From Nitrospinota bacterium (lineage in GTDB: Bacteria > 2-12-FULL-45-22 > JACOWJ01): DNA of 19,085 bases. Shown piece after piece: positions 7,312 to 19,085 of this stretch (positions within the stretch are counted from its first letter, which is position 1; each line of letters begins with the position of its first letter). The stretch lies in assembly GCA_016176845.1 (NCBI GenBank), contig JACOWJ010000009.1:1-19085 (forward strand), in the 5' to 3' direction. Made by a program: the position numbers and the translations under genes. The notes below the pieces were generated by a model, which saw only the letters and a program-made list of their open reading frames with translations, was not told the origin of the DNA and made no database searches.

Positions 7312-7749
7312 ATGGCCGAGAAGAAGCTGTTGCTTTACGATGATCTGGAAGTGGGCAAGCGGTTCAAGCCCTTCGTTTACGTCCTCTCCCAAGAGACCAT
7401 CCGGAAGTATGCCGAGGCGGTAGAGGATACCAATCCCCTCTACCTGGACGAGAATTACGCAGCGAAATCCTCCTTCGGGGGGACGATCGGTCATCCCACC
7501 ACGGCGGCCATCTATAGCCTGAGCGCCATCATGACCGAAGGGGAGATGCCTCCCGGGGGGATCCATGCCAAACAATACTTCGAGTTCAGGACCCCTCCTC
7601 GACCTGCGGACATCCTGACCACCACGGCTACCGTAGCCGACAAGTATATCCGCAGAGAGAGAAAGTATGTAGTCTTCGAGACGAACACGGTCAATCAGAA
7701 CGGGGAAACGGTCGTCGTGGGGAAGATGACGGCGATCTGGCCGCAATAG
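7312..7749 (+). CDS. MaoC-like dehydratase, probable non-catalytic subunit (HadA-like)
   Basis: This 145-residue single hot-dog-fold protein is of the MaoC/FAS1-type dehydratase N-terminal family: N-terminal strand region, YAEAVEDTNPLYLDENYA at about 33-50, then IGHPTTAAIYSL. Active MaoC hydratases carry a D-x4-H pair at this place. Here Asp39 is kept but the His position is Tyr44. A strong Shine-Dalgarno, GGGAGGT, precedes the ATG by six bases. The next gene encodes a homologue with both catalytic residues, so the pair probably forms a heterodimer acting on 3-hydroxyacyl thioesters, as in mycobacterial HadAB. The substrate is unknown. The gene's TAG stop is also the first three bases of a tandem repeat. 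Confidence 0.85.
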   Translation: MAEKKLLLYDDLEVGKRFKPFVYVLSQETIRKYAEAVEDTNPLYLDENYAAKSSFGGTIGHPTTAAIYSLSAIMTEGEMPPGGIHAKQYFEFRTPPRPADILTTTATVADKYIRRERKYVVFETNTVNQNGETVVVGKMTAIWPQ

Positions 7750-7814
7750 CTCATAGCTTGTAGCTCATAGCTCGTAGTTCATAGCAAAAGCTTTGAGCTA
7801 TGAGCTATGAGCTA
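7747..7814. repeat. AGCTCATAG tandem/inverted repeat between the maoC genes
   Basis: Several degenerate copies of TAGCTCATAGCT are followed, after AAAAGCTTT, by reverse-orientation copies GAGCTATGAGCTATGAGCTA. The RNA could form a long imperfect hairpin. It fills the 82-base gap between the two dehydratase genes and starts in the first gene's stop codon. Confidence 0.85.
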
Positions 7815-8254: not shown

Positions 8255-8278
8255 GCGCATAAGAGCCGAAACCCTCGG

Positions 8279-8310
8279 GTCGCCCCCCGCGCGAGGGCGT
8301 GGATTGAAAC
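8279..8310 (+). repeat. Solitary type I-C CRISPR repeat-like sequence upstream of radA
   Basis: These 32 bases begin GTCGCCCCCC, contain a GC-rich inverted pair (CGCCC with GGGCG), and end GTGGATTGAAAC, the hallmark 3' tail of many CRISPR repeats. Compared from memory with the common type I-C repeat of the same length, they differ at two positions (11 and 16), the second introducing a C-A mismatch in the stem. There is no second copy within a spacer length on either side, and no cas gene in the window, so this is not an array. It ends one base before the radA ATG. Confidence 0.8.
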
Positions 8311-8311
8311 G

Positions 8312-9673
8312 ATGAACAACTCGAAGACTTACTACGTTTGTCAATCTTGTGGACATATTTCCCCCAAGTGGCTGGGGCGGTGTCCGGATTGCGAGAGCTG
8401 GAACGCGCTGGTGGAAGAGCGAGAGGCGCCGCCCCGGCCGTCCCGTGGCCAGCGGGGCAGCCGGGGCCAAAGCCCTATCCCCATCACCCTGGTGGGCGGG
8501 GAAAGGGAAGAGCGTTTCTCTTCGGGGATTCAGGAGCTGGACCGGGTGCTAGGCGGGGGGGTCGTCCCAGGATCCCTCGTCCTGATCGGGGGGGATCCCG
8601 GCATCGGCAAATCCACCTTGCTGTTGCAGTCCTCCGGGAAGATCAGTCAGGAGGGAAATCTTGTCCTCTATGTTACGGGGGAGGAGTCCGCCAGCCAGAC
8701 CCGGATGCGGGCCAATCGGCTGGAGGCCCTGGCCGACAGCCTCTACCTGTTGACGGAGACCTGTCTCGAGGACATCATCGACCACATCTGTCGCCTGACC
8801 CCTGCCATCGTCGTGGTCGACTCCATCCAAACCCTCTATACCCAGCACCTGCCCTCGGCGCCAGGCAGCGTCGCTCAGGTGCGGGAGACCGCCGGCGAAT
8901 TGATGTCGCTGGCCAAAAGCAGCCAGATCCCCATCTTCCTGATCGGCCATGTCACCAAGGAGGGCTTTCTGGCCGGGCCGAGGGTCCTGGAGCATATCGT
9001 GGACACGGTCCTCTATTTTGAAGGCGATCGAGGCCACGCCTTCCGGATCCTGCGGGCAGTGAAAAACCGGTTCGGGTCCACCAACGAGATCGGGGTCTTC
9101 GAGATGAAGGGGCACGGCCTGCAGGAGGTGGCCAACCCCTCCGAGCTCTTCCTGGCGGAGCGACCCACGGGGGTGCCGGGCTCGATCGTCGTGGCCTGCC
9201 TGGAGGGGTCTCGCCCAATCCTGTTGGAACTGCAGGCCCTGGTGAGTAATTCGAACCTGGGCACGGCCCGTCGCATGGTCACCGGCCCGGACTATAACCG
9301 GGTCTCTCTGATGATCGCCCTTTTGGAGAAACGGGTGGGCCTGCAACTGGCGGGGGAGGACATCTTCCTGAACGTGGCGGGCGGGGTGAAGGTCGAGGAG
9401 CCGGCCATCGACCTGGGGATCATCCTGGCCATCGCCTCCAGTTTTCGAGATCAGCCGATCGATGGGAAAACCGTGGCCATCGGGGAGGTAGGCCTGGCGG
9501 GTGAGGTCCGGGCGGTCCCTCAGCTGGAGATGCGGGTCCGCGAAGCGGCCAAGCTAGGGTTCGAGCGGTGCTTGGTTCCCTGTAAGAACGCCCTGAAATC
9601 GGAACAGGAGATGGGCATTGGCCTCCTGCCGGTGGATTCCATCGGGGGTGCCCTGGAGATTCTGTTCTCGTAA
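8312..9673 (+). CDS. radA: DNA repair protein RadA (Sms)
   Basis: This 453-residue protein is a RecA-like ATPase that drives branch migration in homologous recombination and repair. It has an N-terminal zinc finger (C10-x2-C13 ... C24-x2-C27), Walker A GDPGIGKS ending at Ser101, Walker B IVVVD at about 166-170, and the RadA-specific KNRFG at 251-255. The C-terminal third is a Lon-protease-like domain without expected protease activity. Length matches the family. The start is set by the usual spacing to YVCQSCG. The 5' leader is unusual: the CRISPR-repeat-like sequence takes the place of a normal Shine-Dalgarno, with only the GAGGG inside it as a candidate. Confidence 0.97.
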   Translation: MNNSKTYYVCQSCGHISPKWLGRCPDCESWNALVEEREAPPRPSRGQRGSRGQSPIPITLVGGEREERFSSGIQELDRVLGGGVVPGSLVLIGGDPGIGKSTLLLQSSGKISQEGNLVLYVTGEESASQTRMRANRLEALADSLYLLTETCLEDIIDHICRLTPAIVVVDSIQTLYTQHLPSAPGSVAQVRETAGELMSLAKSSQIPIFLIGHVTKEGFLAGPRVLEHIVDTVLYFEGDRGHAFRILRAVKNRFGSTNEIGVFEMKGHGLQEVANPSELFLAERPTGVPGSIVVACLEGSRPILLELQALVSNSNLGTARRMVTGPDYNRVSLMIALLEKRVGLQLAGEDIFLNVAGGVKVEEPAIDLGIILAIASSFRDQPIDGKTVAIGEVGLAGEVRAVPQLEMRVREAAKLGFERCLVPCKNALKSEQEMGIGLLPVDSIGGALEILFS

Positions 9674-12550: not shown

Positions 12551-13039
12551 TCAAGCGCAAGCCTCTTTTTGTAGTTTCTCCCATACCTGATATTCCGGGT
12601 AAAGACGTTTCAGCATTTCTTCCAATCCAATTATCTGTTCATCTGACGCTTTTTCGCAGAAGTCCTCTATCCAACCTTTCATCCGCATTTTGACAAGGTT
12701 TCTCAGGGGAATCGGCGGCTTAATTTGGGCCTCACCGGTAAGGGGGGGCTGGACCTCGATGGGGGAGGTTTCGATAAGGACACTCTTAAGCATTTGCCCT
12801 TCACCGGTAGCAAGCCATTTGGCGCTTATCCCCAAACTTTCTACTGCACCGGGAAAATCTATGGGGATTTTCTTTGCCTTCCCCAATTCCAGGTGCTGGA
12901 TTTGATACCACTTTAACCCTATTTTCTCGCCCAAGCCTCCTTGTGTGAGTCCTAAAGCCTCCCGCGCCTGTTTCAGACGCTGCCCAAATTCTTTAAAAGA
13001 AATTTTATGTTCCACGGAAATTTTACGTTTGACATTCAC
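12551..13039 (-). CDS. CI-like phage repressor, XRE-family HTH
   Basis: This 162-residue protein has an N-terminal XRE helix-turn-helix (about 15-70; FGQRLKQAREALGLTQGGLG, then YQIQHLELGKAKKI). It is followed by SLGISAKWLATGEG, the phrase seen after the HTH in phage CI-type repressors. The rest is a short acidic/proline linker and a helical tail, with no LexA-like peptidase Ser-Lys pair visible. It is probably the lysogeny-type master repressor of the element. It is divergent from the gp16-like gene 67 bases away. No Shine-Dalgarno is visible before ATG 13039. GTG 13015 is an alternative, and a leaderless message as for lambda cI is possible. Confidence 0.85.
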   Translation of the reverse strand: MNVKRKISVEHKISFKEFGQRLKQAREALGLTQGGLGEKIGLKWYQIQHLELGKAKKIPIDFPGAVESLGISAKWLATGEGQMLKSVLIETSPIEVQPPLTGEAQIKPPIPLRNLVKMRMKGWIEDFCEKASDEQIIGLEEMLKRLYPEYQVWEKLQKEACA

Positions 13040-13053
13040 AGAAAATTTTTGTA
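12999..13053. promoter_or_regulatory. Three operator-like direct repeats between repressor and early gene
   Basis: GAAATTTTATGTT (12999-13011), GAAATTTTACGTT (13017-13029) and GAAAATTTTTGTA (13041-13053) are tandem, same-strand copies. The second touches the -35 and the third overlaps the -10 of the early promoter. This arrangement fits binding sites for the adjacent CI-like repressor or the gp16-like regulator. Confidence 0.5.
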
Positions 13054-13057
13054 TGCT
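13029..13057 (+). promoter_or_regulatory. Early promoter of the element
   Basis: A consensus TTGACA (13029-13034) is separated by exactly 17 bases from TATGCT (13052-13057). It lies about 50 bases upstream of the gp16-like start codon and is interleaved with the operator-like repeats. Confidence 0.7.
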
Positions 13058-13105
13058 TTCCTGGTAAAGATTACAGAATTTTTCTGCTTCCTATGGAGAA
13101 TCTAC

Positions 13106-13393
13106 ATGAATTCTGAAGAAAGAGCAAGCGCAATTTTTGAACTTCGGGGGGAATTGCTCAAGAAAGGGCTTACCCTCCAGGCCTTCGCAAGGAAGGAAGG
13201 ATTTGATATCCGCACGGTTTTCGCGGTTATCCAAAGATATTGGGGAACCGGCGAAAACCCTCCCCGGGGCATAATCGCTCAGGCCATCCTGGAGCGCCTG
13301 CGGGCTTACGTCGAACATCCCGAACCTCCTTCTGAGCAAGAAGAGTGTGAAAACCAACCCGTGTCCCTTGTTGAGAACGGGCCTTACTGTTGA
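13106..13393 (+). CDS. BcepMu gp16-like phage regulatory protein
   Basis: This 95-residue protein starts MNSEERASAIFELRGELLKK, then LTLQAFARKEGFDIRTVFAV and RYWGTGENPPRG. The HTH pattern and length resemble the BcepMu gp16 / Ner-type early regulators of temperate phages. I use the ATG at 13106, preceded by GGAGA at six bases, rather than the longer frame from 13007, which would include the promoter. It is the first gene of the rightward operon and is coupled to the next gene by a TTGA overlap at 13390. Confidence 0.7.
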   Translation: MNSEERASAIFELRGELLKKGLTLQAFARKEGFDIRTVFAVIQRYWGTGENPPRGIIAQAILERLRAYVEHPEPPSEQEECENQPVSLVENGPYC

Positions 13394-13935
13394 GCTCTTA
13401 CCTCGCCAAGGAGGCGGGCTATGCCATCGTGGAGCTGCCCCAGAAGCCAGTAGCCCTCCCAGAGGCAGTGGAAGCTGGCGCCCATGCCCTGCATGAGTGC
13501 GGGGAGATCATAGAGATGTATGGCCAGGCAATCCGGGATAGGAAGGTTACAGCACAGAAGCTGCGGGTCATCCGACATGAAGTGCGGGAGGCCCTAAACG
13601 CCCTGGTGACGCTCTCTGGCGGTGGCGGAGAAGATGAATGGAGGGCAAGAACAATGAATGATCTGGTCCTTTTCCAAAAACACCTGCTCGCCAATGACGT
13701 GCAGGGCGTCCAGCAGTTCCTTGTCGAGTGCAAACAAGAGAGCGCCAATGAGGGGTTGCGTCAAGCCAGGGAGGCTTTTGGGTTTCCAACGGCACAAATT
13801 GAAAGCATTCGCTGGAAATCATTCCCTTTACCCGGCCCAAGGGAACCAATGCTGTCCGCTTCTACCGGCCGGCCATCGACAAGTGGATGTCGAGCTATCG
13901 GCGGAAGGGGCGATCGACCTACCAACTCGATATAA
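13390..13935 (+). CDS. CII-like regulator C-terminal domain, frame continuing into an HTH protein
   Basis: The first 75 or so residues (from TTG 13390: SSYLAKEAGYAIVELP, then HECGEIIEMYGQAIRDRKVT and IRHEVREALNALVTL) resemble the C-terminal part of the P2-type phage CII regulator family. The N-terminal DNA-binding half of that family is missing; the preceding gp16-like protein may supply DNA binding. The frame has no stop before the next probable start (ATG 13654), so as read it is one 181-residue frame whose last 40 residues are probably out of frame. See the separate entry for the second half. Confidence 0.5.
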   Translation: MSSYLAKEAGYAIVELPQKPVALPEAVEAGAHALHECGEIIEMYGQAIRDRKVTAQKLRVIRHEVREALNALVTLSGGGGEDEWRARTMNDLVLFQKHLLANDVQGVQQFLVECKQESANEGLRQAREAFGFPTAQIESIRWKSFPLPGPREPMLSASTGRPSTSGCRAIGGRGDRPTNSI

Positions 13936-13952
13936 AGCTCAAAGGGATCTGA
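13654..13952 (+). pseudogene. Excisionase-like HTH protein, one-base frameshift
   Basis: From ATG 13654 (after GGAGG) the frame reads MNDLVLFQKHLLANDVQGVQ ... AREAFGFPTAQIE. The continuation of an HTH/excisionase-type protein then lies in another frame from 13809: SLEIIPFTRPKGTNAVRFYR, PAIDKWMSSYRRKGRSTYQL, ending at TGA 13950-13952. Adding one A to the AAA run at 13802-13804 joins them. RFYRP-x4-W is the usual end of the winged part of excisionase-like domains. Such a protein would direct integrase or act as a regulator. Either the gene is broken or the assembly lacks one base. Confidence 0.55.
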
Positions 13953-13973
13953 CGTCCGGTAAAGCGGTGTGCG

Positions 13974-14028
13974 GTGAGCAGTGAGCAGTCCACTGCCCAC
14001 AGTCCACTGCCCACAGTCCACTGCCCAC
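13974..14028. repeat. 14-base tandem repeat AGTCCACTGCCCAC
   Basis: Three exact tandem copies of AGTCCACTGCCCAC (13987-14028) are preceded by two copies of GTGAGCA. CACTGC and GCAGTG words allow partial self-pairing. It lies just after the excisionase-like gene. The rest of the gap to 14139 holds only a weak hairpin (CCCCT-GGAAAG-AGGGG at about 14099-14114) followed by TTTAATTTT, which could be a terminator. Confidence 0.85.
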
Positions 14029-14138
14029 CGAACTGCGAGGAGTGGGTAGCCCCCGGGAATAGCCCCGCCTATGAGGCTATCCAAACCCTTTGCCTTCTTC
14101 CCCTGGAAAGAGGGGTTTAATTTTGTGGAGAGAAAAAC

Positions 14139-14628
14139 ATGGAAACGGCAGCAGAAGAGATCAAAAATATCGACCTGAGGCAGCTTTTCTCATTGCTCAT
14201 CCCAGGGATCTCGTCAAATTCCCTCTGCTGCTGTGCCCCCTTCATGCCGATCGGAATCCCTCGCTCAATCCTGCCTATACCGGCGCAGACGGCAGGCAGC
14301 GATGGCATTGCTACGGCTGTGGCGCGGGCGGCGATGCCATCGATCTCGTCCAGGCGGTGGCCCGGCTGGGCGGCGTGGAACTCTCTTTTCCCGGAGCATT
14401 GGGACAGCTCTCCGAGCTTACGGGCATCGAGGTGGAGGGACAAGAACGCAGTGGGGCGGGGACCCACCTTCTCCGAAGCTTACCAGGCCCGCAAGGCTCC
14501 AGCGGGAGCGGCTAAAGACTGTGGCAAACTACTTCAAAGAGTGCCTGAAGATTCATCCCGCGGGCCCTGGGGCTCGTGGCCTTCCACACGAGCCCCCCGC
14601 CTTTCCCTGGAAGGAGGGGCAAGGTTGA
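14139..14628 (+). pseudogene. CHC2 zinc-finger primase-associated protein, two one-base frameshifts
   Basis: The start ATG 14139 (GGAGAG six bases before) gives METAAEEIKNIDLRQLF. The frame of 14090-14515 then gives HPRDLVKFPLLLCPLHADRN and RWHCYGCGAGGDAIDLVQAV: a DnaG-type CHC2 zinc finger (C-x2-H ... C-x2-C). A third frame gives RERLKTVANYFKECLK, the helical piece that usually follows, ending at TGA 14626-14628. One added base in TTTT (14185-14188) and one near CCC (14463-14465) restore about 163 residues. CHC2 fingers bind template DNA in primases. It is coupled by a TTGA overlap to the primase gene, so the two probably act together. No Toprim domain follows, so this is not a complete DnaG. 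Confidence 0.65.
14569..14596. repeat. Perfect 10-base-pair stem-loop before the primase start
   Basis: GGGGCTCGTG and CACGAGCCCC flank an 8-base loop. It lies within the end of the CHC2 frame, 28 bases before the TTG start and just upstream of AAGGAGGGG. It may tune translational coupling of the primase. Confidence 0.6.
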
Positions 14629-17054
14629 AAATCAGCAATGAGCAGCAAGTAAAAGCCATTACCGGGGTGAAAAGGCTCTTCTTCCATCGAGCGGATGTCT
14701 ACGCCGAAATGTGGAAGGCCAGGGATGGCCGGATCGGCTACTCTCCCGTGTGCCAGCAGGGCAAACCCTGGCGCTGCGGCAAGCAAGATCTGATCGAAGA
14801 GGATGGCCCCCGTTGCGGCCGCAACTGCCATAGTTTCTCTCCCGTACCCCTCACCGACGAGGCGATCGCCAGGCATCTGGCGGGCAGGGTCACGCTGGGG
14901 GCCTACCTGCTGGCCGCTGACAATACCTGCAAGGCCGGCGTCATCGACTGCGACATCAATAAAGGCGCCGATCCTGACGCCAACCGCCCCAGGTGCGGGG
15001 AGCTGGCGAGGCTTATCTATCGGACCTGTCGGGGCATGGGCCTGTCTGCCCTTCTGGAAGACTCCGGCAACAAAGGCTATCACCTCTGGACCTTCTTCTC
15101 TGAGCCCATGCAGGCCCGTGAGGTACAGCGGCTGGGAAGGCTAATTGTGTCCAGGGCGCTGGAAGAACAGGAGTTTAGTGGCATTCATGCCGAGGTATTC
15201 CCCAAGCAGGAGGAGAAGGACCACTTTGGCAACCTGATTAAGGTCCCGCTCTCTCTACACCTGAAGACCGGGAGGCGCTGCCTCTTCCTGGACCCCGAGA
15301 CCTTCGAGCCCTACGAGGATGAGCAGCAGCTTAAAACACTGCTCTCCGTGGAAACAAACACACCGGAGCAGGCGCGAGAGATCTTCGAGGAGTATAGAGC
15401 AGAGGAAGAGACATTCGGCAGGGACGAGCAGAGGGGAAGGACAGCTCAGGAAAGAGATGGCGACTCCCGGTTCCCTCTGGTAGAGGAGCCTGTAGGCGCG
15501 ATCCTCAAAAATTGCGAGCGAGCTGAGGCCCTCCGCCGGCAAGCCGAGGAGGAAAATCATCTCCTCCACGGCGAGCGGATCTTCGTGGCCAATCTGTTCG
15601 GATCCATCGGCCAGGCCGAATGGGCCATCGATCATCTCCTCTCCCTCTGCTCCGATTTCGATCGAGGGGAGACCGAGAAGCAGTTCGCCTCCCTCAAGGG
15701 CAAAGGCCCTCTCTGCCTGCCCAGGAATCGTGGGGGCGATCCAACGGCTTGCCTGGATCTTTGCGAGAGGATCAAGGCCCTTGGAAAGAAGTCCCCAGTA
15801 GCCTTCGCGTACCAGAAGGGAGGAGGAAAGGAAAGCCCGGAGGAGGAGCTCTCCCACGTCCGGAAGCGGATCGAAGAGGCCCTCGATGCGGGCGCGATCG
15901 AGGCCGCCTTTGACGCAGCCGAAAGCCTTTCCCGGCTGCCGGCCGATGAGTACGGCAAAACCAAGGCAAAATTTAAGAAGCGGCTGGGCAAAGAGCTAAA
16001 CCTCAGAGACCTGGATAGGGCCGTCAGGGAAGCCCGGCAGCAGGCTGCCAAAAAGCGGGCTCAGGAGCAAAGGAACCACACCCCTTTCATTTTTGTCCGG
16101 GGAGGCTACCTGACCCGAATCAAGATCGATGAGAACGGCCGTGCCCTGGCGGAGCCCCTGACCCTGCAATCGGCCCGCGGAATTTTGGAGCGATCGGCCA
16201 ACTTTCTGAGAGTCCTGGAATCCAATGAGGGGATCTCTTACTCGCCCATCCCTCCCCCGCTCGATGTAGTCAATGACCTGATGGCCCTCTCCGACTGGCC
16301 GGGGATTCTCCCCCTGATTGGGGTGACCACGGCCCCGGTGGTGGCCCCTGACGGGACCCTGGGGCTCGCGCCCGGCTACCAGAAAGGCTCAAGGCTCTAC
16401 TACCACGCCAGCAAGCCCTTAAACCTGGGAGATACCACCCCCACGGACGAAGCGGTGGCGAAAGCCCAAAAGCTCCTGTTGGAAGAGCTGTTAGTTGACT
16501 TTCCCTTCAAAGATGAGGCCTCCAGGGCCAAAGCCCTGGCCCTGCTGTTGTTGCCCTTCGTTCGGCCACTGATCACCAGCCCTACTGCGCTCCATCTGAT
16601 CGATGCGCCCACGCCGGGGACCGGCAAGAGCCTGCTGGCCGACATTGTAACCCTCCCCTTCTCCCCCACGGGCGCCTCCGTGATGACGGCAGGCCGGGAC
16701 GATGAGGAGTGGCGCAAACGGATCACCGCCAGGTTGATCGACGGGCCTTCCCATATCCTGATCGACAATGTCCAGGGCCGCCTGACCTCGGCCGACCTGG
16801 CCGCCGCCATTACGGCACCGTTTTGGTCCGACCGGCTCTTGGGGCAGAGCAAGACCATCACGGTGCCCGTCCGCTGCTGCTGGATGGCGACCGGCAACAA
16901 CGTGTTACTGAGCGGCGAGCTGGCCCGGCGGGTGTGCTGGATCCGGCTGGATGGCAAAGCAGAGTGCCCGTGGGAGAGGAACGGGTTCAGACACCCCAGT
17001 GTCTCCTCCAGTGGGCCAGGGAGCACCGGGGGGAGCTGGTCACTGCGGCCCTGA
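14625..17054 (+). CDS. TOTE-like archaeo-eukaryotic primase with P-loop helicase domain
   Basis: I start at TTG 14625 (AAGGAGG seven bases before; overlaps the CHC2 stop). The in-frame sequence back to 14139 belongs to the previous gene. Residues 1-245 form an AEP primase resembling TOTE conflict-system primases: zinc cysteines C43, C51, C64, C68; catalytic VIDCD with Asp108 and Asp110; SGNKGYHLW with His153; GNLIKVPLSLH. Residues about 295-400 resemble the helical PriL-like part, with C342, C364, C376, C380. A coiled linker follows, then a helicase-type ATPase: Walker A PTPGTGKS (Lys668), Walker B ILIDN (Asp714), sensor ATGNN and an arginine pair in ELARRV. It should prime and unwind DNA for element replication. 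The frame breaks at about 16994; see the next entry. Confidence 0.8.
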   Translation: MKISNEQQVKAITGVKRLFFHRADVYAEMWKARDGRIGYSPVCQQGKPWRCGKQDLIEEDGPRCGRNCHSFSPVPLTDEAIARHLAGRVTLGAYLLAADNTCKAGVIDCDINKGADPDANRPRCGELARLIYRTCRGMGLSALLEDSGNKGYHLWTFFSEPMQAREVQRLGRLIVSRALEEQEFSGIHAEVFPKQEEKDHFGNLIKVPLSLHLKTGRRCLFLDPETFEPYEDEQQLKTLLSVETNTPEQAREIFEEYRAEEETFGRDEQRGRTAQERDGDSRFPLVEEPVGAILKNCERAEALRRQAEEENHLLHGERIFVANLFGSIGQAEWAIDHLLSLCSDFDRGETEKQFASLKGKGPLCLPRNRGGDPTACLDLCERIKALGKKSPVAFAYQKGGGKESPEEELSHVRKRIEEALDAGAIEAAFDAAESLSRLPADEYGKTKAKFKKRLGKELNLRDLDRAVREARQQAAKKRAQEQRNHTPFIFVRGGYLTRIKIDENGRALAEPLTLQSARGILERSANFLRVLESNEGISYSPIPPPLDVVNDLMALSDWPGILPLIGVTTAPVVAPDGTLGLAPGYQKGSRLYYHASKPLNLGDTTPTDEAVAKAQKLLLEELLVDFPFKDEASRAKALALLLLPFVRPLITSPTALHLIDAPTPGTGKSLLADIVTLPFSPTGASVMTAGRDDEEWRKRITARLIDGPSHILIDNVQGRLTSADLAAAITAPFWSDRLLGQSKTITVPVRCCWMATGNNVLLSGELARRVCWIRLDGKAECPWERNGFRHPSVSSSGPGSTGGSWSLRP

Positions 17055-17653
17055 CGCTGATCCGCCGGTGGCTGGAGGCCGGCCAGCCACCGGGCGAGCT
17101 GGTGGTGGGCAAGCTGGAGAGCTGGGCCGCGACGATGGGTGGCCTCTTGAAGACCATCGGCCTCCCGGGGTTCATGACCAACACCGCTGCCCTCTACGAG
17201 AAGCTGGACACGGAGCGAAGGGCCTGGGGAGCTTTCCTCGAAGCCTGGTGGGACCGCTTCGGAGTCTCCCCGGTCGGTGTGGCCGACTTATTTCCCCTGG
17301 CCAGCGCCCCCGAGGACCGGAAGAACGGCGAAGGGGCCCCCGAGGGCCTCGACCTTTTGAGCGAGCAGCTGGGCGGCGGCTCGGACCGCGCGCGGCGGAC
17401 GCGATTGGGGCACCTGCTCAAGGGCAAGGTGGATTGCGTTTATAGCGGCCTGAGAATCCTGGACGCCGGTACAAAATGGCGGGCAGCCCGGTACCGGTTG
17501 GAGGAGGTTTCAGGCCCCGGATCGAGCCCGGGGCAGGCCCTGCGAGGTTCTACCCAGGCTTCACAAGCTGACGGGGATGATCCTGAGCGGGAGGTGTTCG
17601 AGCCGGGGCAAAGGCTCTATCCCTGGCAGAAAGTTTTAGGTTTTAAGTTTTAA
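16997..17653 (+). pseudogene. C-terminal part of the primase-helicase, shifted frame
   Basis: Adding one C to the CCCC run at 16994-16997 turns FRHP followed by nonsense into FRHPQCLLQWAREHRGELVT, the usual continuation after the ATPase core in phage-type helicases. The frame then stays open to 17653 (LLKTIGLPGFMTNTAALYEK, RRAWGAFLEAWWDRFG, KWRAARYRLEEV). The joined protein would be about 1,010 residues. Near the end PGSSPGQALRG is encoded by a palindromic repeat (17513-17546), and the final GFKF plus stop come from the TTTTAAG repeat. It is probably a winged-helix/origin-binding tail. Confidence 0.65.
17513..17546 (+). repeat. 34-base palindromic element, copy 1 (in-frame)
   Basis: GGCCCCGGATCGAG then CCCGGGGCAGGCCCTGCGAG. 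It encodes GPGSSPGQALRG within the C-terminal part of the primase-helicase. Confidence 0.75.
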
Positions 17654-17690
17654 GTTTTAAGCCCTAAAACCTAAAACTTAAAACCTATTA
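17631..17690. repeat. TTTTAAG tandem/inverted repeat at the primase 3' end
   Basis: Repeated TTTTAAG/TTTTAGG words on the left arm are followed by CCC and complementary CTAAAAC/CTTAAAAC words on the right, so a long AT-rich hairpin can form. It contains the primase-frame stop codon (17651-17653) and ends about 13 bases before the next gene. Confidence 0.85.
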
Positions 17691-17702
17691 TCCCATTCGA
17701 CC

Positions 17703-18155
17703 ATGGGAAAGTTATTGGGTCGCCAGTCCTTAAGGGTTAATTGTCCCCATGGGGGATACGTTCTCAGAGGCGACGTGGACCCCGGGTCGAGCCCGGGGCA
17801 GGCTCTGGGGCAGGAGGGCCTTGAGAAGCCATCCGCCTTCCCGGAGCGGTGGTCTGCCATGGCGGATAGGAGCCCGCACCATAACGCCGTCCAGGAACAG
17901 GACGAGGTCCTGTTCCTCTTTGCCTGCGAGCTGATTCAAGATCCCGGCCGGGGCCGGTTCCCTGGAGATCTCCCCAGGACCCTGAATCAAGTTCAGGGCA
18001 GGCTCTGGAGCCACTACTCCCCTTTCTGGCGTGAGGGGCTTCCCCAGGAGGCTTTCGAGGAGCTGGAGCGCAGCATCCGCCGGCGGCTGGAGGAGGGGCC
18101 GGTCGCTTCGCTCCATTGCAAATTGGAAATTGGAAAGTGGAAAGTGCAAATTTAA
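17703..18155 (+). CDS. Hypothetical protein carrying two palindromic repeat insertions
   Basis: This 150-codon frame shows no recognised domain. Credible protein-like parts are QEQDEVLFLFACELIQDPGR and PFWREGLPQEAFEELERSIR. PGSSPGQALG (17777-17810) and TLNQVQGRLW (17977-18010) are encoded by two copies of the palindromic element, the latter in a different phase. The last 15 or so residues and the stop come from copy B of the 100-base element. The start ATG 17703 has no clear ribosome site. It may be the front half of a gene whose back half is the zinc-ribbon frame after 18202. The original gene function is unknown. Confidence 0.4.
   Translation: MGKLLGRQSLRVNCPHGGYVLRGDVDPGSSPGQALGQEGLEKPSAFPERWSAMADRSPHHNAVQEQDEVLFLFACELIQDPGRGRFPGDLPRTLNQVQGRLWSHYSPFWREGLPQEAFEELERSIRRRLEEGPVASLHCKLEIGKWKVQI
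17777..17810 (+). repeat. 34-base palindromic element, copy 2 (in-frame)
   Basis: GGA, then stem CCCCGGG, loop TCGAG, stem CCCGGGG, then CAGGCTCTGGGG. It encodes DPGSSPGQALG, in the same phase as copy 1. Confidence 0.8.
17977..18010 (+). repeat. 34-base palindromic element, copy 3
   Basis: GGA, then stem CCCTGAA, loop TCAAG, stem TTCAGGG, then CAGGCTCTGGAG. Three stem pairs differ from copy 2 on both arms, so pairing is kept. It starts exactly 200 bases after copy 2. Confidence 0.8.
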
Positions 18156-18201
18156 AATTTCCAATTTGCAATCTTCAATTTCCAATTCCCCCGAAGGGGG
18201 T
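18101..18201 (+). repeat. 100-base dispersed element, copy B
   Basis: It begins GGTCGCTTCGCTCCATTGCA, has a core of GGAAATTGGAAA-type words facing complementary TTTCCAATTTGC words, and ends CCCCCGAAGGGGGT. Its ends match copy A (11339-11438, opposite strand) almost base for base while the cores differ. Confidence 0.75.
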
Positions 18202-18504
18202 AGGCTCCCCGAACCTCTGCCTCCTGCTGGCTCCTGCCCGGCTTGCGGAGGGAAGGAGTATTGGGTATCGACAGGGAGAGCGCGCTTCTGTCTTGCGTGC
18301 CACCCTCCGCATTACCGGGAAGCGATCACGGTGGGCCGGCTCGAGCGGCCCGAGGAGCCGGCCCGGCCCCAAGCCCGGGGGCGAAAGAAGAGGGCAGAAC
18401 GTGGGGGGAAAGAGGGGAACGTCGGTCCCTCTATGCCGGGCTTGTTCTCTGAGGGCTCTGCCCTCCATGGTGCTGTCGAGACAGGATCACGAGAGAGAAG
18501 ATAG
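18202..18504 (+). pseudogene. Zinc-ribbon protein fragment
   Basis: In the frame ending at 18504 a zinc ribbon is readable: CPACGGKEYWVSTGRARFCL followed by ACHPP, a C-x2-C ... C-x2-C pattern common in replication-linked proteins of mobile elements. A basic tail follows (RPQARGRKKRAERGGKEG). There is no ATG, GTG or TTG between the 100-base element and the ribbon in this frame, so it looks like a C-terminal fragment cut from the 17703 gene by that element. The call rests on the cysteine pattern alone. Confidence 0.45.
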
Positions 18505-18822
18505 TCCTTTGTTTCAAGGCAGCTGCCAGGCTGAGGCTAGATGAGGAATAGGACCTGGGGGAGTGGGTTGGGTGATGTGCAGGCCTGGCTCTGGGAAGAT
18601 CGCCATCCGCAGGAGGAAGGAGGTATGGGAGACGACCGGCGCGGCATGGACAGTGTCCCTGGTGTCTCATCCCCTCCGCTTCCGGCCGGCAGTGTGACCG
18701 GGACGATTCTCACGGAGTATGCCCCGTACTGCTGGGATGGCATCCCCAGGGTGAAGACCATGGAGCACATCGGGAAGACCCATGAACCACCCTATCACAA
18801 TCCATTTAAAAGGAGTCGCATT

Positions 18823-19085
18823 ATGGACCATGAGACCCCCATCGACGAAACCGCAGAGTTCGACCTGGGTATGTTCGACGAGGTTCCTCCGGACCAGTTT
18901 GGCCCGACATCAATCCTGTATCCGGCATGGCGAGCAAGGCCTTTCTGGCCGAGGTGATCCAGGCAGTGGGCAAGACCTTGAAAGATCCCGCCTCCCGCAT
19001 CGTCCGGGCAGCTCGTGGCCCCAAGCATCCCGGGGTCCCGCTTCGCTCCTTCTGGGTCACCATCGGCTACAAGAAGGCCCCGACC
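18823..19085 (+). pseudogene. Unknown protein with one-base frameshift, runs off the right edge
   Basis: ATG 18823 follows AAGGAG by seven bases and gives MDHETPIDETAEFDLGMFDE, then VPPDQFGP, after which this frame ends at 18957. Adding one base to CCC (18903-18905) continues as DINPVSGMASKAFLAEVIQA, VGKTLKDPASRIVRAARG and LRSFWVTIGYKKAPT to the window end. I do not recognise the family. The frame upstream of 18823 (from 18541, GTILTEYAPYCWDGIPRVKT) might also be coding, and a 40-codon frame from ATG 18574 (MCRPGSGKIAIRRRKEVWET) is an alternative; neither is supported well enough to list. Confidence 0.45.

Follow-up and report, generated by a model that had tools for sequence, protein, structure and literature searches.

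Known solitary CRISPR repeats

Solitary repeat units carried on mobile elements can act as RNA anti-CRISPRs (Racr), a role that is now established (PMC10651486). One of these, RacrIC1, is a type I-C solitary unit co-transcribed in a single mRNA with acrIC5, and another, RacrIF1, loses its activity when its stem-loop is disrupted (PMC10651486). Ectopic chromosomal repeats are also known from CreTA (PMC9458426).

The locus described here lies in a 19,085-nt stretch of DNA from a Nitrospinota bacterium, referred to below as the window. To judge from its sequence, the segment at 8279-8310 is a genuine, full 32-nt orphan type I-C CRISPR repeat standing in the leader of radA. Like RacrIC1, it is a single intergenic I-C repeat, probably co-transcribed with its neighbors, and has no adjacent cas genes (PMC10651486). 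Unlike Racr units, which are carried by viruses or plasmids, it sits beside a housekeeping gene among core genes in conserved order, with a phage-like block more than 4 kb away; no acr gene or promoter-like site was seen, and its hairpin is altered. A Racr is also a solitary repeat of the host subtype: the radA-leader repeat is solitary, and type I-C is present in a relative of the same order but was not found in the 68%-complete genome itself. Like CreA and CreTA (PMC9458426, PMC8501985), the unit is a chromosomal repeat of the host that is not part of an array. However, there is no second, degenerate repeat within 200 nt, no spacer-like segment with a target and no link to a cas operon on the contig, the examined ORFs of the window including no cas gene. 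No toxin RNA was noticed either, and CreTA repeats are much more degenerated than this one.

A type I-C repeat one base before radA

The repeat and its neighbors are as follows.

7312..7749, + strand: MaoC-like dehydratase 1; the order maoC-maoC-radA is conserved in the relative G001/L011
7832..8254, + strand: MaoC-like dehydratase 2 (maoC2); ends 24 nt before the repeat, leaving no room for a CRISPR leader
8279..8310, + strand: solitary type I-C CRISPR repeat, GTCGCCCCCCGCGCGAGGGCGTGGATTGAAAC; one mismatch against the array repeat of genome G355 and three against the I-C array repeat of G001
8294..8294, + strand: A at repeat position 16, where every listed array repeat has G; predicted hairpin switch from 3-9/15-21 to 9-14/19-24
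8312..9673, + strand: radA ORF of 453 aa; no Shine-Dalgarno sequence at normal spacing; the best candidate, GAGG, is part of the repeat and 15 nt from the ATG

The genes maoC2 and radA are 57 nt apart, and the repeat occupies part of this spacer; one G (8311) separates it from the radA ATG (8312), as the sequence-only reading of this DNA had described. Its length of 32, GTCGC head and GTGGATTGAAAC tail are those of type I-C repeats. That reading had counted two differences from the I-C repeat; there is only one, G16A (8294), when the unit is compared with GTCGCCCCCCGCGCGGGGGCGTGGATTGAAAC, an array repeat present in 43 copies in G355. A repeat copy from the I-C array of a Nitratidesulfovibrio plasmid matches at 96.9% identity. 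The 12-nt tail occurs once in the whole window against 0.08 expected in shuffles, and an Rfam search returned no match.

Within 200 nt on either side and on either strand, the best candidate for a second repeat has 14 mismatches, so the repeat is solitary and there is no array of at least two repeats with spacers, in agreement with the earlier claim. In contrast to ordinary type I-C repeats, it stands alone, without spacers or leader, and has a predicted hairpin that is shifted by A16. The maoC2 stop codon is just 24 nt away, and the I-C leader motif GCGAACC..AAGC..GGTTCGC, which is found in this or a close form in G001, Tistrella and Nitratidesulfovibrio, is absent here. The suggestion that the unit is the fossil of an array is weakened because there is neither a leader nor a degenerate neighboring repeat; a search of the entire genome allowing three mismatches gave two copies only, and a decayed array was rejected. 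An off-target Cas1-Cas2 event, also proposed earlier, is a weak explanation: such integration inserts a spacer, not a repeat, and no target-site duplication was found flanking the unit. The GAGG in the repeat is created by A16 and is too distant from the ATG to serve as a normal Shine-Dalgarno sequence; radA has none better.

The order maoC-maoC-radA is kept in the nearest relative, at 75, 70 and 70% identity, respectively. To judge from the radA region, this relative, G001, is either the same organism as Nitrospinae bacterium RIFCSPLOWO2_12_FULL_45_22 (L011) or a very close one. Its maoC-radA gap is short, has a normal ribosome binding site and contains no repeat. Nor does a repeat precede radA in any of the 80 radA loci that were fetched, which show no conserved radA leader. 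The sequence-only reading was to fall if the 32-mer was missing upstream of other radA genes and the lineage had no matching array; the first of these was found, whereas G001 does carry a related array.

Type I-C machinery in the lineage

The window belongs to a metagenome-assembled genome (G000) of 1.53 Mb in 61 contigs. Cas1, Cas5 and Cas7 were not found in it, but at 68% completeness cas genes may be missing. G001, the only genome of the same order that was compared, encodes a type I-C locus with Cas5, Cas7 and cas4-cas1-cas2, and its array repeat is three bases off the radA-leader repeat. The description of the unit as an orphan I-C repeat is upheld, and type I-C is present in the lineage. 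A separate observation concerns G001: immediately upstream of a second cas1 there is a prim-pol-like ORF (L092:2371-3840) that, by eye, looks similar to the TOTE primase in the window, an arrangement known from CRISPR-associated prim-pols.

A second solitary copy and a shared upstream motif

A pattern search, for which a reversed control pattern gave no match in 1.53 Mb, recovered exactly one more I-C repeat in the genome. This copy, GTCGCTCCCCGCGCGGGAGCGTGGATTGAAAC, lies on the minus strand of another contig (C27:10761-10792), is likewise solitary, and is upstream of and co-oriented with an ORF of the Uma2 family. The likely start codon of this ORF lies 48 nt from the repeat, after an AAAC microsatellite and a Shine-Dalgarno sequence of good quality. 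The neighbor of this copy has no homolog in G001. Positions 6, 16 and 18 distinguish the two copies; 6 and 18 form one stem pair, C-G in one copy and T-A in the other. Because these differences include a compensatory pair, the copies are probably, on sequence grounds, two variants of the I-C repeat and not the product of a recent duplication of one sequence.

A further feature connects the two loci.

8262..8276, + strand: AGAGCCGAAACCCTC, of which the antisense is 14/15 identical to sequence just upstream of the C27 repeat; GAGCCGAAA-N0-3-CCTC lies beside both copies

The near-identical 15-mers are in opposite orientations, and the C27 version, AGAGCCGAAAACCTC, on the opposite strand, makes up one side of a strong hairpin (fold z-score -2.7). 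In the 1.53 Mb of the genome, GAGCCGAAA-N0-3-CCTC is present at two places, each next to a repeat copy. None of 19737 random windows reached the same score, a flattering figure given that the pattern was picked after both loci had been seen. The inverted motif upstream of the C27 copy was considered as an I-C leader, as in Tistrella and Nitratidesulfovibrio, and rejected: its distance and sequence differ, and it is absent from the G001 leader. The shared motif is the one loose end of the case and is worth pursuing. The C27 repeat locus also carries an interspersed element of the genome, readable as NNPDQPGLIAPANEKVLQKDPGIFTV. On the same contig it appears as the apparent N-terminus of an ORF resembling an adenosine-specific kinase (L003:4951-5514), and six more occurrences are spread over contigs C2, C61, C28, C33, C50 and C51.

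Predicted loss of the canonical hairpin

It is established that processing by Cas5d in type I-C depends on the hairpin of the repeat (Nam 2012 and Garside 2012, as cited in PMC10651486). A stem pairing positions 3-9 with 15-21 dominates the predicted fold of the normal I-C repeat. Folded in its sequence context, the radA-leader copy is predicted to occupy the canonical stem of 5-7 bp that Cas5d recognizes only 2% of the time (0.02) with A16, against 95% (0.95) when position 16 is read as G. The GC-rich stem noted earlier therefore has to be qualified: A16 displaces the canonical stem as the predicted fold. Because G16A is predicted to cost the repeat the hairpin needed for Cas5d processing, the folding model argues that the radA-leader copy is decaying as a processing site. 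The minor canonical fold may still be captured by a protein.

Solitary I-C repeats in other genomes, plasmids and viruses

A degenerate I-C pattern matched 18 of 386 genomes. Among the single-copy places inspected, L112, L115 and L118 proved to be arrays cut by contig ends, L121 lies near a contig end beside a cas3 fragment (read by eye), and L119 combines a leader-like region with a second repeat that is truncated. Truly solitary I-C repeats were found at L116 and L122, neither directly before a gene. The genomes with solitary repeats, leaderless or with only a leader, are G168, G066 and G226, and two more such repeats are on two Azospirillum plasmids, one with a leader-like motif. The exact C27 repeat is solitary in two IMG/VR viral contigs (L144 and L145), followed in one by a terminator-like hairpin and lying in the other 29 nt before an ATG; these units are candidate RNA anti-CRISPRs. 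The exact radA-leader 32-mer is absent from viral contigs. Such stray units are therefore recurrent, and the radA-leader repeat belongs to a known kind, the solitary I-C repeats found in unrelated genomes, plasmids and viral contigs.

Two further cases were noted by eye. Viral contig L147 (10912-10950) shows the spacing found at radA, with a single base between a solitary I-C repeat and an ATG, but the ORF has only 13 codons; the frame after the repeat lacks a start, and the unit may stand in place of a gene start. At L122 (about 1030-1213), which belongs to an unrelated genome of 1.0 Mb, the solitary I-C repeat has a type I-E-like repeat, GGTCCATCCCCACATGTGTGGGGAACTC, about 30 nt ahead of it, and the two form a mixed-type pair.

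Origin and possible roles of the radA-leader repeat

The best explanation, and one held as somewhat better than an even bet, is that a stray, decaying I-C repeat is passively carried in the radA leader. A repeat unit from an I-C array of the lineage, or one borne by a mobile element, would have come to lie as an ectopic solitary repeat in the maoC2-radA spacer. There it would form a passively transcribed radA leader, probably as part of a maoC-maoC-radA message, while decaying. Since G16A is predicted to disrupt the canonical hairpin for Cas5d, the repeat would give rise to no guide RNA and to no selected coupling of radA to Cas proteins. The close I-C match, the solitude of the unit, the two copies in the genome, the I-C locus in the same order, the lack of a repeat at 80 radA loci, the loss of predicted hairpin occupancy and the recurrence of stray units elsewhere all speak for this account. 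Against it, the unit does not look like an old fossil, since 31 of its 32 bases are intact and it has a perfect head and tail. In addition, each copy precedes a gene that runs in the same direction, and each adjoins the same short motif, a hint of a larger unit and not of random debris. The compensatory change at 6/18 is expected under selection for a hairpin, yet it equally distinguishes unrelated I-C arrays from one another. The event cannot be dated from a close relative, as none exists. As it stands, the locus indicates that intact I-C repeats do stray into host leaders, and G16A with its lost predicted hairpin offers a test case for separating live ectopic repeats from debris.

The main rival is an origin on a mobile element or a past role like that of Racr. 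The unit, transcribed in a message, would bind Cas5d/Cas7 or mimic a crRNA for them and titrate Cascade, and mobile elements would have carried in the radA and Uma2 copies, as relics or still working, together with the GAGCCG..AAACC..CTC motif. This is unlikely. In its favor, RNA anti-CRISPR repeat units are established, among them the I-C one with acrIC5 (PMC10651486), the exact C27 repeat is solitary in viral contigs, a phage-like block lies about 4 kb downstream, beyond radA, and both copies have the upstream motif. However, the radA copy lies between core genes outside a mobile element, has no promoter-like site upstream and is unmatched as an exact 32-mer in viral contigs, and its canonical hairpin is predicted lost, whereas RacrIF1 needs its stem-loop (PMC10651486).

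In the coupling proposed in the sequence-only reading, Cas5d would cut a hairpin in the maoC-radA message and release radA as a separate mRNA carrying an 11-nt 5′ handle, so that RecA-related repair would be tied to the expression of CRISPR-Cas. Such a coupling, although possible, has no support and is judged improbable. The cut would fall between repeat positions 21 and 22, leaving UGGAUUGAAAC and a sharp 5′ end at UGGAUUGAAACGAUG. The position of the repeat one base before the ATG, its intact tail and the Cas5 of the same-order relative fit such a model, and the cas genes may be missing from an incomplete assembly. It is disfavored because the repeat is not conserved at radA, in the nearest relative or in the 80 other loci, and because the hairpin is changed; moreover, Cas5 was not found in the 68%-complete genome, and the cut message would keep no Shine-Dalgarno sequence. 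If functional, the repeat would link CRISPR RNA processing directly to a housekeeping recombination gene. Few cases of such non-defense roles have been shown.

CRISPR repeats are classic knots in assembly graphs, and the genome, in 61 contigs and 68% complete, is probably a metagenome bin. An array, or unrelated contigs, may accordingly have been collapsed at one repeat node, but this is a distinctly improbable account: the flanks are syntenic with the relative (maoC-maoC-radA) and so belong together, a leader is lacking and the left side offers just 24 nt, and the C27 locus is also solitary and carries the interspersed element of the genome. A more doubtful idea still is that the two chromosomal composites, each a GAGCCG..AAACC..CTC motif with an intact I-C repeat, are Cas5d-binding leaders of radA and the Uma2-family gene, through which CRISPR-Cas expression would tune a recombination gene and a putative nuclease. 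Chance resemblance has a GC-rich composition and nothing more in its favor and is refuted by the 31/32 match to a known array repeat, with two matches only in 1.53 Mb and none for the reversed control.

Other features of the window

The phage- or plasmid-like block spans 12551-18957 and encodes a CI-like repressor, a CII-like activator, a CHC2 zinc finger and an AEP-TOTE primase/helicase. The AEP-TOTE ORF (14139-17054) and the zinc finger (14090-14512) are in different frames, which suggests a frameshift. Short AT-rich, palindromic, tandem-like intergenic sequences at 7747-7814, 17637-17687 and 18115-18190 (TAGCTCATAGC, TTTTAAGTTTTA and AATTGGAAATTGG) suggest that the genome is rich in small intergenic repeats.
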